34,443 bases of DNA, taken from positions 1 to 34,443 of the IMG/VR virus record IMGVR_UViG_3300044981_000194; one strand, 5' to 3'. Positions 2,672-34,443 of this stretch are shown in pieces (within the stretch, counting starts at the first letter, position 1; each line of letters opens with the position of its first letter). The notes below the pieces were generated by a model, which saw only the letters and a list, made by a program, of their open reading frames with translations, made no database searches and had not been told where the DNA came from. Origin of the DNA: a virus. Position numbers and translations under genes: made by a program.

Positions 2672-3279
2672 TACGCACCCCCCGTCGTATTCCATTTACC
2701 AGGATTCTGACCGCCAAGGTATCCTCCAACAAGGCCAAGTCCTTGACCAATCAAGCCACCTAACATATTGCCACCAGCATTCTGACGGTTATAGGCCATC
2801 TGAGCCGAATTCTGACCCATATTCATGGCATTATTGCTTTGACCTGAAGCCGCATTAGCTCCAGTCCCATAAACTCCCTGAACGAGCCCAGCACCCGCCA
2901 AATACTTCTGCATAAGGTCATTCAGATAATTCTGTCGGTCTTCCATACCAATCTGGGATGTTCCGCTCTGAATAGCATTAATGGCTGTATTTGAGCCTCC
3001 AAGACCCATAGAAGTGGCCGCATTAAGTCCATGCTCTTGCGCCATCTTCTGGGCTTGTATGGCCGCAGGACTTGTTTCATAGCCTTGTGTCCATTTGGCT
3101 TGTAATTCCTGGGGGTTCATCAGGCTTCGGATATAATCATTCAGATTCCCGTATTGCTCTTGCCCATGCTGATTGTAAGGCTGCAATGCTTCCTGGGATT
3201 GCCGGTAATACTTGTCCAGTTGTTCCTGACCTTTTTGGTACCCCTTTTGAGGGTGTAAAAAACTTGATAGCCAGCTCAT
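2671..3279 (-). CDS. Ejection (DNA transfer) protein, gp7-like
   Basis: A protein of 202 residues. The start is supported by AAGGAG seven bases before the ATG. The N-terminal half is Gln/Tyr-rich and helical; the C-terminal third is Asn/Gly/Gln-rich and ends in a GGLIGQGLGLVGGYLGG stretch that could insert into or lie on a membrane. It is the first of three ejection-type genes downstream of the tail-stem genes, as gene 7 is in P22. The assignment comes from order, size (P22 gp7 is about 230 residues) and composition. Confidence 0.72.
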   Translation of the reverse strand: MSWLSSFLHPQKGYQKGQEQLDKYYRQSQEALQPYNQHGQEQYGNLNDYIRSLMNPQELQAKWTQGYETSPAAIQAQKMAQEHGLNAATSMGLGGSNTAINAIQSGTSQIGMEDRQNYLNDLMQKYLAGAGLVQGVYGTGANAASGQSNNAMNMGQNSAQMAYNRQNAGGNMLGGLIGQGLGLVGGYLGGQNPGKWNTTGGA

Positions 3280-3290
3280 TTTCCAACTCC

Positions 3291-3584
3291 TTATGGATAG
3301 GCCGTGGTCGTGAATTTAACCAAAGCTCCGCTTTGCATTCCTACGTATTCGTTATTAGTTGTGTCATACAACAAAATACCGTTATCAAAATCACCTGCTG
3401 TAAACATGGCAGCAATCTCTGCTGCTGTTAAATTGGGGGCTGATAAAAAATTAAATGAATCCTGAATATCGCCAATGACTTCATTTAACGTATCTATCAA
3501 TACCCAAAGCCATTGTAAAAACTGGGGATCGAAATCACTCTCGGCAATGGGTGCGGAATCAATACGCTCCAAAAATATAGCCAT
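3291..3584 (-). CDS. Small virion protein at the gp26/gp14 position
   Basis: A protein of 97 residues. The ATG at 3584 overlaps the gp10-like stop as TGATG, so translation is probably coupled. The N-terminal half is predicted helical with hydrophobic heptad-like spacing (the QWLWVLIDTLNEVIGDIQDS stretch). The C-terminal half looks like a small beta domain. In P22 the gene after gp10 encodes the gp26 tail needle, which is much longer (233 residues). This could be a minimal needle or plug, or an unrelated small virion protein. I do not recognise it. Confidence 0.65.
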   Translation of the reverse strand: MAIFLERIDSAPIAESDFDPQFLQWLWVLIDTLNEVIGDIQDSFNFLSAPNLTAAEIAAMFTAGDFDNGILLYDTTNNEYVGMQSGALVKFTTTAYP

Positions 3585-5380
3585 CAATTAGCCCCTCCAC
3601 TTACCCTTTTTGTATTTCGTACCCCGCCCAAAACAACTATAGGCGCAGAACTCACGCAAATGAGTTTGTAGCAACGATTACGACTTACCCCTAGCTCATA
3701 CCACCTCATGCGCCACCTATAGGCTCCCAGTGGGCTGAATTCGCGTAAATCAGCGGTCAGGAAAGTCTCGCCGCCGTCATCAGAATAATAAAGCTCAACA
3801 TGAGGCTTAAAGAGAGCATAATAATGGTTATCATCAAAAGTGGGCGTGTTCGTGCCCTCCTCAATAATAAATTTATCGTCCTCCGTAAGGAGGTAGACCG
3901 GAATAGTGTCCGTGCTAGCCTCACTAACAACAAAAACGGTATTAAGAAATGGAGCGGAGCTCTTATAGAAAGTCTTATTACCAAAGACAAAATCAATTTC
4001 AACGTATTCATCCATGAACTCCGAATAGTCAGGCAGAAAAATCTGCTGGGTCACAAGCTCATAGCGCATGGGAAACTTTAAAAATGCGTCAGGAGCCTGC
4101 ACGTTGGGTTGATCGGGATTTATAAGTTCATTGTGATAAATATTTCCGGCCATCTGATATACGGCAGGATCGAGTAAGACTGTCACCAGATGAGCGTTAT
4201 TAAAGTAAACGTGCTTTTGTATACGGCAACGCTCACCGTTAAGCTCAATACATCGCCCCCATTTTCCGGTATCAAAGTTATACTCAATAGAATTTGAGTT
4301 ATCCACGACATCCAAATCCCCAAAGTTAACAAATTGCCCTGCTGACGCCCGGTAAAAAATAGTGTTCTCATACTGATATAAAAATCCGTCTACTTCATTA
4401 ATCAGAAAAGGGCTTAAACTGTTATCGTGAGTCGAATTCTCAAGAAGCACGTTAATGGCTTGTGATGATATAGCCTGAGGCTTTTGCCCTCCGCTCATCA
4501 TAAAAGTCACAAGACCATTCGCATTTCTGGCAAGCCACACCATCATGCCAAAATCAACGGACAAACTATTGGGATCGGCAATTCCGTAATCAAAGTTATA
4601 GGATGAATTGGTTTTCCAGGGAAATTCCCGGATCACACCACCAACCGATATCTGCGTAATAATATTAGCCCATACATCTGTAGTAAAGTCGCACATAATA
4701 TAAAGCTGATTCTGCAATACACAAAATTGTCCAATAACACCGGAAGCAAAGGCATTCAGAGCGGCGTTAAGAACAGGATCGGTAAAATAGGTGTTTACAT
4801 TTCCGGACAAGTTAATCTGGGACAAATAAAAATCAGGAGTGCCAGCCACACTCACTACAAACCGGTTTCCGAAAGCTGCTACATACAAAGGCTTTCCTCC
4901 CGTTGTAGCACCACCAGGAGCATTAGGATCGGTAACGACTGCTGAAGTAACGGATGTTCCATTTTCAGTAATAACAAATATGCTTTGCCCATCCGTCATC
5001 ATATTATAAACCGTGGAACCCACGGCCAGAGTTGCCCACCATACAGGGCCTCCCAATGACACATTGATTAACAAGGTTTTCTTATTATAAAACCGGTCAA
5101 ACTGGAAAACAGACGTCCCATCTATTACGTATAAATAATTAATGGACTTGTATATAGCACGGGGTTGGGAATTAAATATAAGCCTGTTCTGATTCAGAAA
5201 ATTAACATGCTCACGACCCATAACAGGATATAAAGCCTGCTGCTTTTTCCCGGATTCAACCTGTATTCCATACCAGTTTGCACAATCCATGGCGCCAAAT
5301 TGTTTAAAACGCTGTTGATCGTAATAGCAAAAAATAGGCAATTGCTCTATGGATGCCGATTCTGGTGCGCGCGCAGCCAT
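3584..5380 (-). CDS. Packaged-DNA stabilisation protein, P22 gp10-like tail hub
   Basis: A protein of 598 residues, against 472 for P22 gp10. The start overlaps the gp4-like stop as TAATG. The sequence is a long series of beta strands, consistent with the beta-propeller-rich gp10 family, and the C-terminus (DDGGETFLTADLREFSPLG, then RMRWYELGVSRNRCYKL) resembles the family's end region. gp10 hexamers form the tail hub under the gp4 adaptor ring and keep packaged DNA from leaking. Flanking genes (gp4-like upstream, ejection proteins downstream) agree. The extra length probably reflects an additional beta domain. Confidence 0.85.
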   Translation of the reverse strand: MAARAPESASIEQLPIFCYYDQQRFKQFGAMDCANWYGIQVESGKKQQALYPVMGREHVNFLNQNRLIFNSQPRAIYKSINYLYVIDGTSVFQFDRFYNKKTLLINVSLGGPVWWATLAVGSTVYNMMTDGQSIFVITENGTSVTSAVVTDPNAPGGATTGGKPLYVAAFGNRFVVSVAGTPDFYLSQINLSGNVNTYFTDPVLNAALNAFASGVIGQFCVLQNQLYIMCDFTTDVWANIITQISVGGVIREFPWKTNSSYNFDYGIADPNSLSVDFGMMVWLARNANGLVTFMMSGGQKPQAISSQAINVLLENSTHDNSLSPFLINEVDGFLYQYENTIFYRASAGQFVNFGDLDVVDNSNSIEYNFDTGKWGRCIELNGERCRIQKHVYFNNAHLVTVLLDPAVYQMAGNIYHNELINPDQPNVQAPDAFLKFPMRYELVTQQIFLPDYSEFMDEYVEIDFVFGNKTFYKSSAPFLNTVFVVSEASTDTIPVYLLTEDDKFIIEEGTNTPTFDDNHYYALFKPHVELYYSDDGGETFLTADLREFSPLGAYRWRMRWYELGVSRNRCYKLICVSSAPIVVLGGVRNTKRVSGGAN

Positions 5381-15853: not shown

Positions 15854-16123
15854 CTAGACATTTTTTCCAATTCCCCTATACCTTCGCATGGGTAAATCAA
15901 AAGATTGCTTATAGAGCTCCTGAGAGCCTTCTGCGTAATTTGGCATTCCAGCCTCTACCCAGATTTTAACTGAAGTTACCAGAGAGTCGTCTGGTATCAG
16001 TCCATTAACCATATCGTGTTTATCTTCCTCACTCAATAGCCTTGTAGCAATAAGTTTTGGGCTTACTCCAAGCTTTATTCCGAGGGTGAAGAGTTTACGC
16101 TGGCATTCTTGTTTGGTTAGCAT
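15854..16123 (-). CDS. Hypothetical protein overlapping the initiator gene
   Basis: A protein of 89 residues (MLTKQECQRKLFTLGIKLGV...), with GGAG before its ATG. It overlaps the last 29 bases of the initiator gene, so it is probably coupled to it. It occupies the place of lambda P (helicase loader) but is far too short, and I see no P-loop. It is helical in the N-terminal half and basic at the end (FDLPMRRYRGIGKNV). An initiator cofactor is possible. Confidence 0.75.
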   Translation of the reverse strand: MLTKQECQRKLFTLGIKLGVSPKLIATRLLSEEDKHDMVNGLIPDDSLVTSVKIWVEAGMPNYAEGSQELYKQSFDLPMRRYRGIGKNV

Positions 16124-16991
16124 TTTTTGCGCTCCATGCTTTAAATGACAAAGGTTCTTTTCCTTGAACTGATGGTATTTTCAAATAATCACGGTCATTA
16201 AGAAACTGGCTAAAATACAGTTTGTAGTCGTACATCAGTAAATCCGAAGTTTTTTGTACTTCTGTTTTTTTTGGAGAATATTTATCACCACTATCATTTT
16301 TGCCGCCAACCATAAAAACAATGTTCTCGGATTTTAGTTTTTTAAGAAGCTTTACTGCAGCTCCGGCTCTCTGAAGCCTTGGGTAGGATTTTTCGCTGCA
16401 TTCGTCGATGTGTTTCACCACATCTTCCATAAATTCATTATCTGTTCGTGAATCTATTGTAAGCTTTTGATTCAATATGTTCTTATCGGTGGTTTCTGAG
16501 AAAATAAAACTACTACTACTGCAGTTAGTTAGTTTCTTATCTGGATTAGTATCTGGATTAGTATCTGGTATAGGTGTCACCGATCGGTGAAATTGATTTC
16601 TCCATTCGGTGAAATCCATTTCACCGTTTGGTGAAATGGACAAATAAAGGGTTTCAAGGTATTTATCCTTATTCAGGTGGGGGAAATAGTGATAAGCTTT
16701 TGGGGTGAGGGCATACCAAACTGTCCTGTCGTATTTGTTTTTATTATAGTTTCCTCTTATTACCAATCCTTCTTTTACGGCAGTGTTTATGATGCGCTCT
16801 CGTTGTCTCCTGGAAAAATAGGGGAATATGTCTCCCATGGCCTCAAGAGTGTCGTAAGTCCAGCAAAGGCCGTCGTGAATATTTTTTTTGTTAGCGAGAT
16901 TTTTGAAGGTCCAGTGATCCAGATGACCTAAAAACAAGGCAATATAAACAGAAAAATCCTTGGCAAGGTTTACATCGAATGCGTGGTTCAT
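16095..16991 (-). CDS. Replication initiator, lambda O-like winged-helix protein
   Basis: A protein of 298 residues. Residues 1-120 look like a winged-helix replication protein: MNHAFDVNLAKDFSVYIALF, then a recognition region FPYFSRRQRERIINTAVKEG and a wing LVIRGNYNKNKYDRTVWYAL. A linker follows (TPIPDTNPDTNPDKK), encoded by 12-bp tandem repeats. The C-terminal part is helical (DLLMYDYKLYFSQFLNDRDY) and may contact the helicase or its loader. The DNA encoding residues about 118-139 carries five iteron-like repeats, as the lambda O gene carries ori. The promoter of an opposing RNA starts two bases from the ATG. GGAG precedes the start. Confidence 0.75.
   Translation of the reverse strand: MNHAFDVNLAKDFSVYIALFLGHLDHWTFKNLANKKNIHDGLCWTYDTLEAMGDIFPYFSRRQRERIINTAVKEGLVIRGNYNKNKYDRTVWYALTPKAYHYFPHLNKDKYLETLYLSISPNGEMDFTEWRNQFHRSVTPIPDTNPDTNPDKKLTNCSSSSFIFSETTDKNILNQKLTIDSRTDNEFMEDVVKHIDECSEKSYPRLQRAGAAVKLLKKLKSENIVFMVGGKNDSGDKYSPKKTEVQKTSDLLMYDYKLYFSQFLNDRDYLKIPSVQGKEPLSFKAWSAKNANQTRMPA
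16539..16568. repeat. 12-bp tandem repeat inside the initiator gene
   Basis: ATCTGGATTAGT is repeated at 16539 and 16551, with a half copy at 16563. On the minus strand it encodes DTNP-type repeats in the linker. It lies next to an A/T-rich tract and beside the iteron cluster. Confidence 0.8.
16577..16637. repeat. Iteron-like cluster: candidate replication origin
   Basis: Five copies of a CGGTGA(AAT) element lie in 61 bp. There are forward copies at 16585-16593 and 16607-16615 (22 bp apart, two helical turns), a near copy TGGTGAAAT at 16629-16637, and inverse copies at 16577-16582 and 16618-16626. The first two form the perfect palindrome TCACCGATCGGTGA. The cluster lies in the middle of the initiator gene, beside A/T-rich sequence at 16480-16560, as in lambda ori. 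Confidence 0.65.
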
Positions 16992-30783: not shown

Positions 30784-32889
30784 TTAGGTATAGGGTACAA
30801 CACCAATTCTGGATTCAACTATATAGTTAAAGGCTATATAGGCTTCATCTTTTGAGTTATTTGCACTTGCAAACGTTAACAGGTTATTAACATTCTGGGC
30901 TGGATAGAAAACTCCTGTACGACCAAAGTTAGGCGTCCAATTTCCTGAAACCAATATATTTCCAGATGCAACCTGGCCTCCTCCGATTGCTCCAGAATTC
31001 AAGTATCCTGTAACATTGTCTACGGTACCATCCTGAGCGTATAAATGACAAACACCGCTACTGCTCCACTTTTGCGTATTAAATCTAACGTCAAACTGTC
31101 GGGCCACAAGATTTTGACTTATGCCACCAGATGGAAGCATGGTAGCTGAAGTAGAACCATCTGCTGTGTTAGTTCCTGGTAATACTGTGGATGGATAGCT
31201 TTTCTCATAATAGCGTTGGCAGGCTGACAAGATAGTAGAATAACTTTGAGGAGCTGGAATTGTTGGTATATCTCCTGGTACCACTGAGACTGAATGAAAG
31301 GAAAGACCTTTGTTATCAGGTATTGGCGCTGTTCCGACAACAATAGCAAAATAGGTTGCTGTATTAACAGCGCTTGTGGCCCGCATATCCCAGCCGTTAA
31401 ATCCATAGGATGCCAGATTAGTCTGCAAGGTAAATTGAGCAGGACCCAAATTATTTTGACGTTTTATTTCATTCCAGCCGGATACTACGGCAGAAGGATG
31501 CCCTTTTATATCCAGGGTAGTTATAAGGCTTAACGGTAGTGTTGGGACATTTGCATTGGTGGAATACCATAAAGATACTGTTCCAATCAGACCTGCTGGT
31601 ACATTACTATCTCCTTCAACATTTACAGATAGCCTGTGATTTAAAAGATCGCGCGCTTCAGCTTGTGGTAAATATTGAACAATGGCGGCCTGGGATGAAT
31701 TGGTAACATCTGTTGAATAAAGGGCCATAGCGCCGTCCATGGCTCTTTGCATGCCAATGGTTGAAACAATACTTTGAAATAAAATGGTTTGATCCATCAC
31801 ATAAGTATTGGCGGTGGATGGAGGCGCCAGGCTATCTCCATTTACCTGGGATGGATTTAACGGGAAGTCCCATCCTATCAAGTAACTGGGTATAGGCTTG
31901 AAGAACAAAGGACCTTTATAGGCGTTAAATGTATGGTCTAGTTGCCTGTTAATGGAATCTTGTTCGAAAGCAGGCTCTAGCGGTAAATCCTGTACTACCA
32001 ACTGGATGCTGGTCACATAAATATCTATGTTACTGGGTAGCGCAAGTTTATAATCAATATAAGATGCTGGAGGAATATCTGGATTAGTAGTAGCTGGTAA
32101 TTGGCCATATCCTGTAAATTCATTGAAATCCTGATCTATACTTGAATTATCCAGAACTTGAGCCAATACAGAGGCATTGGAATCTATTAATGAAGCGCTC
32201 ACTGATTGTGGCGAGCCATTTAACTTGGCTGTCAAAGTAGATGAAACAATTTTATTAGCCCACAACATGCCATTCTGATAAAACCTCTGGCGTAAAAATA
32301 CCCCGTCACTACTCCATCCGTTTAATGTCAAACGCAGAGCATACGGAGCATTAGAGGGGTTCTGGCTAGTGTCGTTTAACGGGACTTGCTGAATGGTGGC
32401 GCTTCCAGTTCCCTGAAGCTCCAAATACCATCCTGGGCCTATTCGTACCGGGTCTGGATTCGTCAGACTTGTTAGCACTAAGGGAATAGTAAAATCTAAA
32501 AAGGCAAATTGGGGGTTGGTTATTTGATTAGTGGATGAAAAAGCCAGTGTGTCAATAGGGGTTGATCCGCCTTCACCAGCTACATAGTTTTCAACTAAAT
32601 AGATTAATGGGTCGCTTTGAGTTGGTGGGCCTAGTCCTATATGTTGACGAAACTCAAGACGGTAAACAACCTCTGATTCAAAGTATATGTCGTTTGGGAG
32701 GGTTCCGTTTCCAAGGAACTGGATAGGAGTGGTCCATGGAGTATCCAAATCAGGATCGTGATAAACAGTGGCTGGAATATAGGGGATCTGATTCTCAAGA
32801 ACCCACATGTAATAGGTATCATCGAATAACTTACCAGCCAGATTAACCAGAACCCATATTGGATTCGCACCCCTGATGCCTAAGGCCAT
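30784..32889 (-). CDS. Tail fibre/tailspike-like receptor-binding protein
   Basis: A protein of 701 residues from the ATG at 32889 (GGAG upstream; extension to 32910 lies in the promoter leader). Residues 1-110 (MALGIRGANPIWVLVNLAGK, then NDIYFESEVVYRLEFRQHIG) form an N-terminal domain common to phage fibres. The rest is beta-rich with Asn/Thr/Ser/Pro content; residues about 560-690 (SQNLVARQFDVRFNTQKWSS) may be a carbohydrate-binding sandwich. No depolymerase or lyase catalytic motif is visible. It is first in the fibre operon behind a consensus promoter, the place of a main receptor-binding protein. Confidence 0.78.
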   Translation of the reverse strand: MALGIRGANPIWVLVNLAGKLFDDTYYMWVLENQIPYIPATVYHDPDLDTPWTTPIQFLGNGTLPNDIYFESEVVYRLEFRQHIGLGPPTQSDPLIYLVENYVAGEGGSTPIDTLAFSSTNQITNPQFAFLDFTIPLVLTSLTNPDPVRIGPGWYLELQGTGSATIQQVPLNDTSQNPSNAPYALRLTLNGWSSDGVFLRQRFYQNGMLWANKIVSSTLTAKLNGSPQSVSASLIDSNASVLAQVLDNSSIDQDFNEFTGYGQLPATTNPDIPPASYIDYKLALPSNIDIYVTSIQLVVQDLPLEPAFEQDSINRQLDHTFNAYKGPLFFKPIPSYLIGWDFPLNPSQVNGDSLAPPSTANTYVMDQTILFQSIVSTIGMQRAMDGAMALYSTDVTNSSQAAIVQYLPQAEARDLLNHRLSVNVEGDSNVPAGLIGTVSLWYSTNANVPTLPLSLITTLDIKGHPSAVVSGWNEIKRQNNLGPAQFTLQTNLASYGFNGWDMRATSAVNTATYFAIVVGTAPIPDNKGLSFHSVSVVPGDIPTIPAPQSYSTILSACQRYYEKSYPSTVLPGTNTADGSTSATMLPSGGISQNLVARQFDVRFNTQKWSSSGVCHLYAQDGTVDNVTGYLNSGAIGGGQVASGNILVSGNWTPNFGRTGVFYPAQNVNNLLTFASANNSKDEAYIAFNYIVESRIGVVPYT

Positions 32890-32917
32890 AACGTACACTC
32901 CATGTATCAATTATTTA

Positions 32918-32946
32918 ATTATAGTAGCACGTTATTTATTACTCAA
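32918..32946 (-). promoter_or_regulatory. Consensus promoter of the fibre/lysis operon
   Basis: On the minus strand -35 TTGAGT (32946-32941), 17-base spacer, perfect -10 TATAAT (32923-32918). The -35 overlaps the stop of the winged-helix gene. It would transcribe all genes to 25 kb. Confidence 0.72.
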
Positions 32947-33460
32947 ATAGATAGGCATCCTCTTTAGAGATTTTAATTTCAGGATTTAATCTATACCAAT
33001 TAATTTGTTGAATTTCAGATTGAGAGAAAACACCGGTTTCTTTATGTTTTAAAGAAGAAGATGTTTTCTTGTATCCGGAATCCGGACTAGTTGGAGAAAA
33101 CTCCTCCGGAATACGGACTAGAGAACTATTTTTATTCAGTTCATTATTTATTCTATTCAGGACTAGTGTGCAAATTAGTTTCAGTATTTTTCCTTTCTGG
33201 AATTTAACTCTTGATGTAAAACCTACGCGTTCGATAATCCTTAATTTTTCCAAGGTGTTTAGGCATTCGTAAATAGGGCTTTGTGAATACCCTGTATTTG
33301 CTGAAAGAGATTCAATTGAATATGGAAATGGGTTGTCATTACGGATGAGAAATCCTAGCAACCTATAGAATATAATTTTTTCGCGTCTTTTGAGTTTTAA
33401 TCGATTGCAAGCCAAGGAATATACTTGAGAATTAAATGTTTTGGCTTTTTTAATGCTCAT
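32939..33460 (-). CDS. Second winged-helix protein, replication or plasmid-Rep type
   Basis: A protein of 173 residues. Residues 20-85 form a winged helix (LKRREKIIFYRLLGFLIRND, then SIESLSANTGYSQSPIYECL and EKLRIIERVG), of the HTH_36 kind seen in phage O-like and plasmid Rep N-termini. The C-terminal half is basic then polar, with no further domain. The gene is isolated upstream of the fibre operon. An opposing extended -10 promoter begins four bases from its ATG, and its own promoter is at 33559-33587, so its leader should be covered by an antisense RNA. It could be an initiator paralogue or a late regulator. Confidence 0.72.
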   Translation of the reverse strand: MSIKKAKTFNSQVYSLACNRLKLKRREKIIFYRLLGFLIRNDNPFPYSIESLSANTGYSQSPIYECLNTLEKLRIIERVGFTSRVKFQKGKILKLICTLVLNRINNELNKNSSLVRIPEEFSPTSPDSGYKKTSSSLKHKETGVFSQSEIQQINWYRLNPEIKISKEDAYLFE

Positions 33461-33470
33461 TTGCTATACT
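33441..33470 (+). promoter_or_regulatory. Promoter of the oop-like antisense RNA
   Basis: -35 TTGGCT (33441-33446), 18-base spacer, extended -10 TTGC-TATACT (core 33465-33470). It faces away from the winged-helix gene that starts at 33460. Confidence 0.65.
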
Positions 33471-33476
33471 GCCCTT

Positions 33477-33558
33477 GTTGTTCGTGAAGGTTCAACATTG
33501 CGTGATTGTAATTAGAAGCCGAACGGGTTGACGCCCATATGTTCGGCTTTGTTTTTTC
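33477..33558 (+). ncRNA. ~80-nt antisense RNA with intrinsic terminator (oop-like)
   Basis: From the predicted start near 33477 the RNA has a first hairpin with GTTG/CAAC arms around 33478-33496, then a terminator: AAGCCGAAC (33516-33524) with GTTCGGCTT (33541-33549), 9 bp, and TGTTTTTTC. The length is close to lambda oop (77 nt). It is complementary to the leader of the winged-helix mRNA. Confidence 0.6.
33516..33558 (+). terminator. Rho-independent terminator of the small RNA
   Basis: Perfect 9-bp stem with a 16-base loop that itself holds GGG/CCC, followed by seven U in nine positions. Confidence 0.8.
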
Positions 33559-33587
33559 AGTATACCTTTAGAGAATTATTATGTCCG
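33559..33587 (-). promoter_or_regulatory. Promoter of the second winged-helix gene
   Basis: On the minus strand -35 CGGACA (33587-33582), 17-base spacer, -10 TATACT (33564-33559). The start near 33552 would give a leader of about 92 bases, nearly all complementary to the plus-strand small RNA. Confidence 0.6.
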
Positions 33588-33708: not shown

Positions 33709-33909
33709 ATGCTAGACATAAAACATATATTAGATTTACGCCTACATCATCTTGAAGGAATAGAGCGACAAGGAATAATTCCTAGCGAACAAAGTCAGCT
33801 GCAATTAATAGCAATACAGGGTAGAATTAAGGAGCTGAAGTTTATTATGAAGCTCCTGGAAGAAAATATTACTTCCTCTTCGTTTTCTCAGCAGCCAAAG
33901 AGTAACTAA
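33709..33909 (+). CDS. Small helical protein
   Basis: A protein of 66 residues (MLDIKHILDLRLHHLEGIER...) with AGGATAATCAGG before the ATG. It is helical with an IQGRIKELKFIMKLLEENI coiled-coil-like end. It overlaps the 47-residue gene on the other strand by 41 bases, tail to tail. Unrecognised. Confidence 0.6.
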   Translation: MLDIKHILDLRLHHLEGIERQGIIPSEQSQLQLIAIQGRIKELKFIMKLLEENITSSSFSQQPKSN

Positions 33910-34012
33910 TAGCCACTGCTTGCTTAACCGGCTTTCCTTCATTTACTTCCCTGCGAACATTTTCAGAAAAACCTGCTCTGGTCTTTGCCTTCTTCCCTTT
34001 GATTAATGGCAT
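33869..34012 (-). CDS. 47-residue basic phage protein (MPLIKGK type)
   Basis: MPLIKGKKAKTRAGFSENVR, then REVNEGKPVKQAVAISYSLA and a Lys-rich end. This pattern (M-P-L-I-K-G-K, then E-x-G-K-P-x-K-Q-A-V-A-I-x) recurs in a family of short basic phage proteins of unknown role, often beside virion genes. CAGGGAG precedes the ATG. It directly follows the gp16-like gene in the direction of transcription. Confidence 0.75.
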   Translation of the reverse strand: MPLIKGKKAKTRAGFSENVRREVNEGKPVKQAVAISYSLAAEKTKRK

Positions 34013-34169: not shown

Positions 34170-34443
34170 TCAATCTCCATGGGCTTGGATTCTTGTTGTC
34201 CAGCAGCCTGTGATATTCCTTTGCTTAATAAAAGTCCGAATGCAACTGCTTTCATTTGTTTATTTGGAATGCTATTTATTTTATCCAGTTGTTTGGCCCA
34301 GTCTTTGCTAGTAATAAATTCAATAGCTGCTTTGTCGTTTCCTCCTCGAGTAAAGGCATGCTCTAGCATGTTCTTCAGAAAATCTCCTTCATTACGAGCC
34401 ATATTCATGCCACGCTCTTCAGTGCCTTTTGCGGTTTTAATAG
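34148..34443 (-). CDS. Ejection protein, gp16-like, C-terminal part
   Basis: Right-edge portion of the 597-residue gene that begins at 1625. Bases 34317-34443 repeat bases 1-127, and the unique C-terminal part is 34316-34148. The C-terminus contains a helical segment with a QMKAVAFGLLLSKGISQAAG stretch and ends in a short polar tail before a TAA stop. Treated alone it would look like an 86-residue hypothetical gene, which would be an artefact of the linear cut. Confidence 0.85.
   Translation of the reverse strand, partial: IKTAKGTEERGMNMARNEGDFLKNMLEHAFTRGGNDKAAIEFITSKDWAKQLDKINSIPNKQMKAVAFGLLLSKGISQAAGQQESKPMEIELTGGHR
34317..34443. repeat. Terminal direct repeat, right copy
   Basis: Second copy of the 127-bp terminal identity. 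Joining base 34316 to base 1 restores one uninterrupted reading frame on the minus strand, which is independent support for circularity. Confidence 0.95.

Follow-up and report, generated by a model that had tools for sequence, protein, structure and literature searches.

Lambda oop is a terminated RNA of 77 nt. In the lambda record, the -10 box of its promoter, pO, lies at sense positions -3 to +2 of the O gene, and the iterons of O span codons 117–144 and are followed by AT-rich DNA. Here we describe a comparable locus at a gene for a winged helix-turn-helix (wHTH) protein in the virus record IMGVR_UViG_3300044981_000194 (34,443 bases; "the window" below means this whole stretch). The locus is probably an accessory, O-like initiator/origin cassette which is held down by a convergent promoter and an antisense RNA, as judged from its sequence and that of its relatives.

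The RNA target established for oop is cII rather than O (PMC3985674). pO lowers transcription from pR, the oop RNA has no effect on the stability of the O mRNA, and the effect of pO on lambda replication has been ascribed to promoter interference and not to RNA pairing (PMC3985674). In phage P22, the antisense RNA sar (70 nt, -10 box TATACT) covers the leader of ant, in a slot flanked by gene 16 and the tailspike gene. A published comparison names the content of this slot the "ant moron" (PMC2629481). Plasmid countertranscribed RNAs are small antisense RNAs directed at the leader of an initiator gene, the example taken here from PMC4485353 being RNAII of pMV158. Extrachromosomal mycobacterial prophages have plasmid-like replicons based on RepA or on RNA, some of them with a non-coding RNA (PMC7157519).

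The wHTH gene of the window (positions 32939–33460, minus strand) encodes a protein of 173 amino acids. The putative antisense promoter, TTGGCT-18-TATACT with TG ahead of the -10 box, lies on the plus strand at 33441–33470. Its -10 box (33465–33470) coincides with sense bases -10 to -5 of the gene and leaves four bases between itself and the complement of the ATG (33458–33460). The predicted antisense RNA of about 81 nt (plus strand, 33477–33557, the 5′ end being placed to ± 2 nt) ends in a terminator hairpin at 33516–33549, whose 9-bp outer stem AAGCCGAAC/GTTCGGCTT encloses an inner GGG/GCCC stem, a loop of about UUGACG and a 3′ AUAU bulge. The U-run TGTTTTTT follows at 33550–33557. An opposing promoter, CGGACA-17-TATACT, lies on the minus strand at 33559–33587. 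The mRNA 5′ leader which it would produce (minus strand, 33461 to a predicted 5′ end near 33552) is complementary to nearly all of the antisense RNA, carries the hairpin near its 5′ end and contains a Shine-Dalgarno-like AAGGG at 33476–33472. The initial annotation of this DNA, made from the letters alone, had named a plus-strand promoter four bases from the ATG, a unit of about 80 nt with a 9-bp terminator and an opposing promoter with an almost fully complementary leader, and all three are present.

The 81-nt RNA folds with a z score of -3.15, which is equalled by 1 of 200 shuffled sequences. The terminator scanner run on the window does not call the 33516–33549 hairpin, because its loop is long. 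Promoter-like sites number 17 in 4.4 kb of the window, compared to 12.6 ± 3.8 in shuffled sequences. The promoter match is therefore not beyond chance in the window alone; it is the comparison with relatives that decides, and there it lies far beyond chance.

Relatives of the wHTH gene were obtained from two terminase-related contigs, and then by an alignment-based search which gave 17 loci, near-duplicates included. One unit (L099), whose wHTH protein is strongly diverged, was added from the tail-fibre slot. The comparison set consists of 16 non-redundant units, from 14 phage contigs and the window; one contig, L070, has two units. The leader hairpin is present in 16 of 16 units. The antisense -10 box is exactly at sense positions -10 to -5 in 14 of them, and is off by one base in L117 and by three in L104. 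The antisense promoter scores exceed those at the starts of 574 other genes of the fetched contigs (indicative P = 6e-10), the window being in the top 0.5%. On the sense strand, -10 boxes just ahead of the hairpin are enriched (P = 3e-8, and P = 1e-4 against AT-rich controls). The predicted antisense RNA is 55–64 nt long in the other 15 units, compared to 81 nt in the window. At least five T are found among the nine bases past the antisense stem in 10 of the 16 units, and the mean number of T after the stem is 4.9 in the antisense direction versus 2.9 in the sense direction (paired Wilcoxon P = 0.006).

Outside the hairpin and promoter elements the leaders have diverged, with a median identity of 56% versus 50% for shuffled sequences. 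The leaders of L099 and L120 are 76% identical despite very different proteins, so the leader appears to behave as a module. L070 (G019:C1, about 3200–3770) has its two units in tandem, each with a hairpin, the first one being inverted relative to that of the window; the first gene is broken after 14 codons and the second is longer.

When 11 hairpins are aligned, 98.4% of the cells of the outer stem are paired, and three of its six pairs are altered on both sides. L115 and L119 differ by two compensatory stem pairs and have the same loop. The window, L111, L113 and L114 keep the stem and a CATAT bulge and differ in their loops; the same holds for L099 and L120. In L113 and in the first unit of L070 (L070u1), one stem pair is G-U in the antisense RNA; the corresponding bases of the sense RNA would be A-C.

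A covariance search in related phages, which the initial annotation had suggested, was run over 765 kb and finds the element again, confined to wHTH leaders. Only such leaders match at E < 1e-3, with higher scores in the antisense orientation; the training sequences match by construction, and the informative part is that there are no other strong matches. Since a simple pattern and the covariance model both find wHTH leaders only, the hairpin is not a dispersed repeat. The exact hairpin DNA pattern has no match in IMG/VR. Rfam covariance models give no gathering-level match in the window, and a scan of eight loci at E ≤ 1 returns only a weak Trp_leader in L115.

The gene also carries iterons, all read on the minus strand: a degenerate iteron 1, CTAGTCCTGAATAGA, at 33152–33166, iteron 2, CTAGTCCGTATTCCGGA, at 33105–33121, and iteron 3, CTAGTCCGGATTCCGGA, at 33074–33090, 31 bp from iteron 2. 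Past them, an AT-rich segment (33038–33073, minus strand) contains the inverted repeat TTCTTTA AAACA TAAAGAA and is similar in most relatives. Direct repeats within the coding sequence occur in 15 of the 15 genes tested, around codons 97–129, with 15–17 of 17 bases identical. Their spacing is mostly 31 or 45 bp and they exceed codon-shuffled controls (P 0.000–0.03). The iteron sequence differs from member to member. In most members an AT-rich segment that contains TTCTTTAAAACATAAAGAA, or a sequence close to it, comes after the repeats; it is not clear there in L097 and L120. The stretch encoded by the iterons falls in a low-confidence linker of the predicted protein structure. The repeats are not protein repeats, because a spacing of 31 bp does not correspond to a whole number of codons. 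Nor is it supported that the cassette copies the origin of its own phage: the iterons have no further copies, either in the window or in three related contigs.

The wHTH domain occupies residues ~9–114 of the window protein and is followed by the low-confidence linker (115–142) and by short C-terminal helices, only about 30 residues lying past the linker. PHROG matches are weak but repeated, and point to DnaD-like loaders and O-like initiators: the window protein matches the O-like phrog_678 (E 1.6e-4), and 12 of 14 members match the DnaD-like loader phrog_186 at E ≤ 0.01. A structure search returns generic wHTH matches only, including the N-domains of initiators and of DnaD, and points to no specific family. 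The gene looks like a short O-type initiator gene which lacks most of the C-terminal half of lambda O. A single-sequence protein search finds no wHTH relatives, the alignment from terminase-related phages being required. The locus DNA has no relatives, and the protein no tblastn match, among 50,697 phage records. A plasmid search with the protein gives just two weak GntR-type matches, and two scans of 84,980 bacterial and archaeal genomes give no match to the locus.

The geometry of the locus is that of lambda. In both, the antisense promoter overlaps the start of an O-type or, in the window, O-like wHTH gene and reads away from it, a short terminated RNA is produced or predicted, and iterons followed by AT-rich DNA lie within the gene. 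The proteins differ in length (299 amino acids for lambda O, 173 for the window protein), and so do the iterons: lambda has four at 20–24 bp, whereas the window has about three, spaced 45 and 31 bp. In lambda cII lies upstream; the window cassette has no cII, and its RNA would cover the leader of the wHTH gene itself, which has its own convergent promoter. Complementarity to the 3′ end of cII is not found at the locus, where the upstream gene is the small MPLIKGKK gene, more than 300 bp away in the window. The genes upstream of the relatives' cassettes are structural or have no assignment. Unlike lambda O, the cassette gene lies in a late operon, as an apparent accessory to another initiator. 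The designation "oop-like" thus holds for the promoter at the start of an O-type gene, the short terminated RNA and the iterons inside the gene, but not for the target, since oop acts on cII.

The genomic position is that of P22 sar and ant. As in P22, the RNA covers a leader at the site of translation initiation and ends at an intrinsic terminator (predicted from sequence in the window), the -10 box is TATACT, and the slot between ejection and tail genes varies among phages. The target of sar is the ant antirepressor gene; that of the window RNA would be a HTH_36/O-like wHTH gene. In P22, ant and arc share an upstream promoter, from which the sense RNA is transcribed, iterons are not annotated, and the 5′ end of sar adjoins the start codon, whereas the predicted 5′ end in the window is about 17 bases ahead of it. 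The cassette, as read from sequence, thus combines the gene layout of lambda oop-O-ori with the genomic location of P22 sar-ant and belongs to neither, having no cII and no ant. With the plasmid countertranscribed RNAs it shares a predicted small antisense RNA to the leader of a rep-type gene. The mycobacterial prophage replicons are linked to parABS, whereas the search of the window phage gave no ParA-type gene.

The window phage is podovirus-like, with its late genes on the minus strand. Its record is probably a complete circularised genome, because a 127-base direct repeat is found at both ends (1–127 and 34317–34443). The cassette sits in the late operon, on the minus strand, between the end of the ejection-protein gene and the tail-fibre gene (30784–32910 as listed, likely start 32889, minus strand). 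The small MPLIKGKK gene (33869–34012, minus strand) is upstream of the wHTH gene, close to the end of the ejection-protein gene. It is overlapped by a plus-strand open reading frame for 66 amino acids (33709–33909) which has no family match and is probably not a gene. Across the 67 terminase-related loci, the slot before the tail-fibre gene is empty in some, and otherwise occupied by an HNH-like gene or by any of several wHTH genes. HNH-endonuclease-like reading frames, recognized by eye, occupy it in L090, L098 and L100. In L095 (G032), the slot holds a different wHTH gene, for 121 amino acids, which is preceded by three repeats of the TAATCTTCCAGTTAT type and lacks a hairpin. In the phages of L104, L107 and L118 the cassette is placed among head genes (portal, scaffold, capsid, protease).

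The window has another initiator gene (16098–16991, minus strand), which contains three tandem 22-bp iterons at 16570–16635, of a sequence unlike that of the cassette's. An antisense promoter, TTTACA-19-TATAAT, lies at the start of this gene with its -10 box at sense positions -8 to -3, a second pO-like arrangement in the window phage. In G052, O-like and DnaB-like genes are located elsewhere, apart from the cassette. The cassette looks accessory where this can be judged, since the window and G052 have separate replication genes. No PF00589 integrase was found in the 13 genomes searched, and no PF13614 ParA-type ATPase in the searched genomes that carry the cassette; the latter was found only in G008, where no cassette was found. 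Some of the relatives' contigs are fragments, in which the absence of a gene says little. Maintenance as a phage-plasmid was considered and set aside, with no integrase and with PF13614 confined to the cassette-less G008.

The comparison places both predicted promoters, the hairpin and the terminator at conserved positions in the 16 units. That the same arrangement recurs in at least 13 other phage contigs makes it very likely that the cassette is a real regulated module. Similarly, control of the wHTH gene from the opposite strand is very likely, because a conserved antisense unit reads out of the gene start in every relative found. The following course of events is proposed. A compact accessory cassette with its own sense promoter would have been inserted between the ejection-protein and tail-fibre genes. 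The opposing promoter, which overlaps the translation start, would make the RNA of about 81 nt over the leader, and the antisense unit would keep the expression of the wHTH gene low. The hairpin loops of the two RNAs might kiss and a duplex then extend along the leader up to the Shine-Dalgarno site, while the antisense polymerase would obstruct the sense polymerase. The wHTH protein would bind the iterons, and the repeats would work as an origin. We infer RNA production, repression, binding of the iterons by the protein and origin function of the repeats. The role of the antisense unit is most likely to limit the expression of the initiator-like gene.

Several observations weigh against this proposal. 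The Pfam matches of the window protein, which is HTH_36-like, are below the curated cut-offs, and hhalign, run between the family and lambda O alone, gives no significant match (probability 2.8%). A further initiator gene, with iterons of its own, is present in the window phage. The antisense U-run is weak in 6 of the 16 units (L070u2, L104, L107, L115, L116 and L119), whose RNA may therefore end elsewhere or be processed. The promoters were scored with the sigma-70 consensus, which may not be that of the host, and the 16 units are related and not fully independent, so that the P values are indicative. Finally, RNA pairing may not be the main effect, because lambda oop left the O mRNA stable and pO acted through interference.

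Pairing with the leader is plausible, because the RNA spans the leader upwards of about -17 and its pairing might begin with a contact between loops. The variability of the loops agrees with such contact and also with a lack of constraint. Interference by the convergent promoter must be taken just as seriously, and pairing and interference may both act. The antisense control claimed in the initial annotation thus stands as far as the opposite-strand unit is conserved in all relatives, whereas RNA pairing and the convergent promoter are distinct explanations of such control. The setting of copy number, which the initial annotation had raised as a possibility, would be speculative: the window phage has a second initiator gene and second set of iterons, and neither a PF00589 integrase nor a PF13614 ParA-type ATPase was found in it. 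It is a serious possibility, if short of probable, that control depends on the convergent promoter itself, with an antisense polymerase that blocks or collides with the sense one, and that the short RNA is a side product, as has been suggested for lambda pO. The antisense -35 and -10 boxes overlap the gene start in all units, where a bound polymerase would be a roadblock, and the lambda results cited above point the same way. However, interference needs no particular hairpin, and here a hairpin with a covarying stem and a U-run is kept at a fixed place; moreover, the leader module is common to very different proteins (L099, L120).

Accessory control of an O-like initiator by the antisense unit is to be weighed against a different purpose, that of a replication-interference (superinfection exclusion) device which would keep related incoming phages from replicating, by titration or silencing. 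A plasmid-borne lambda fragment with oop and the iterons silences the replication of related phages (PMC3349717). The variable slot, the separate replication module identified in two genomes (window and G052) and the variation of iterons and loops among members are consistent with such a device, which we consider rather unlikely. Indeed, the cassette iterons are unique within their own contig (in the window and three near-complete contigs), no phage was found with matching iterons at its main origin, and the AT-rich segment, needless for interference, is kept in most members. More speculative still is the idea of a widespread moron family of miniature oop-O-ori cassettes for replication interference against competing phages. 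If it were true, a phage would block its competitors by means of an antisense RNA, a DNA-binding domain and iterons that belong to a replicon of another type, and the hairpin loops and iterons would diversify into specificity groups like the incompatibility groups of plasmids.

It is improbable that the hairpin acts in cis within the mRNA leader (as a stabilising 5′ stem, a translational operator or a protein-binding site) and that antisense transcription is incidental. Sense promoters are present, the predicted sense start puts the hairpin near the mRNA 5′ end in many units, and covariation is blind to which strand folds. The strand-specific features argue for the antisense RNA: in 10 of 16 units it is the antisense stem that is followed by the U-run, the covariance model gives the antisense orientation the higher scores, the G-U pairs of L113 and L070u1 would become A-C if the sense RNA folded, and the antisense promoters are conserved in place. 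As for chance promoter-like and terminator-like strings in an AT-rich leader, such promoter strings are indeed common in the window alone, but the same layout with fixed spacing in 16 units of diverged sequence already contradicts this explanation, to which we give almost no credence.

The cassette, on the reading favoured here, would join two classic antisense systems, the lambda oop-O-ori architecture and the P22 sar-ant slot, in uncultivated phages. Its relatives form a natural, compact and many-times-repeated set of sequences with which to ask whether RNA pairing or promoter interference acts at a phage initiator gene. The same set also asks whether an extra origin cassette serves its own phage or harms its rivals.
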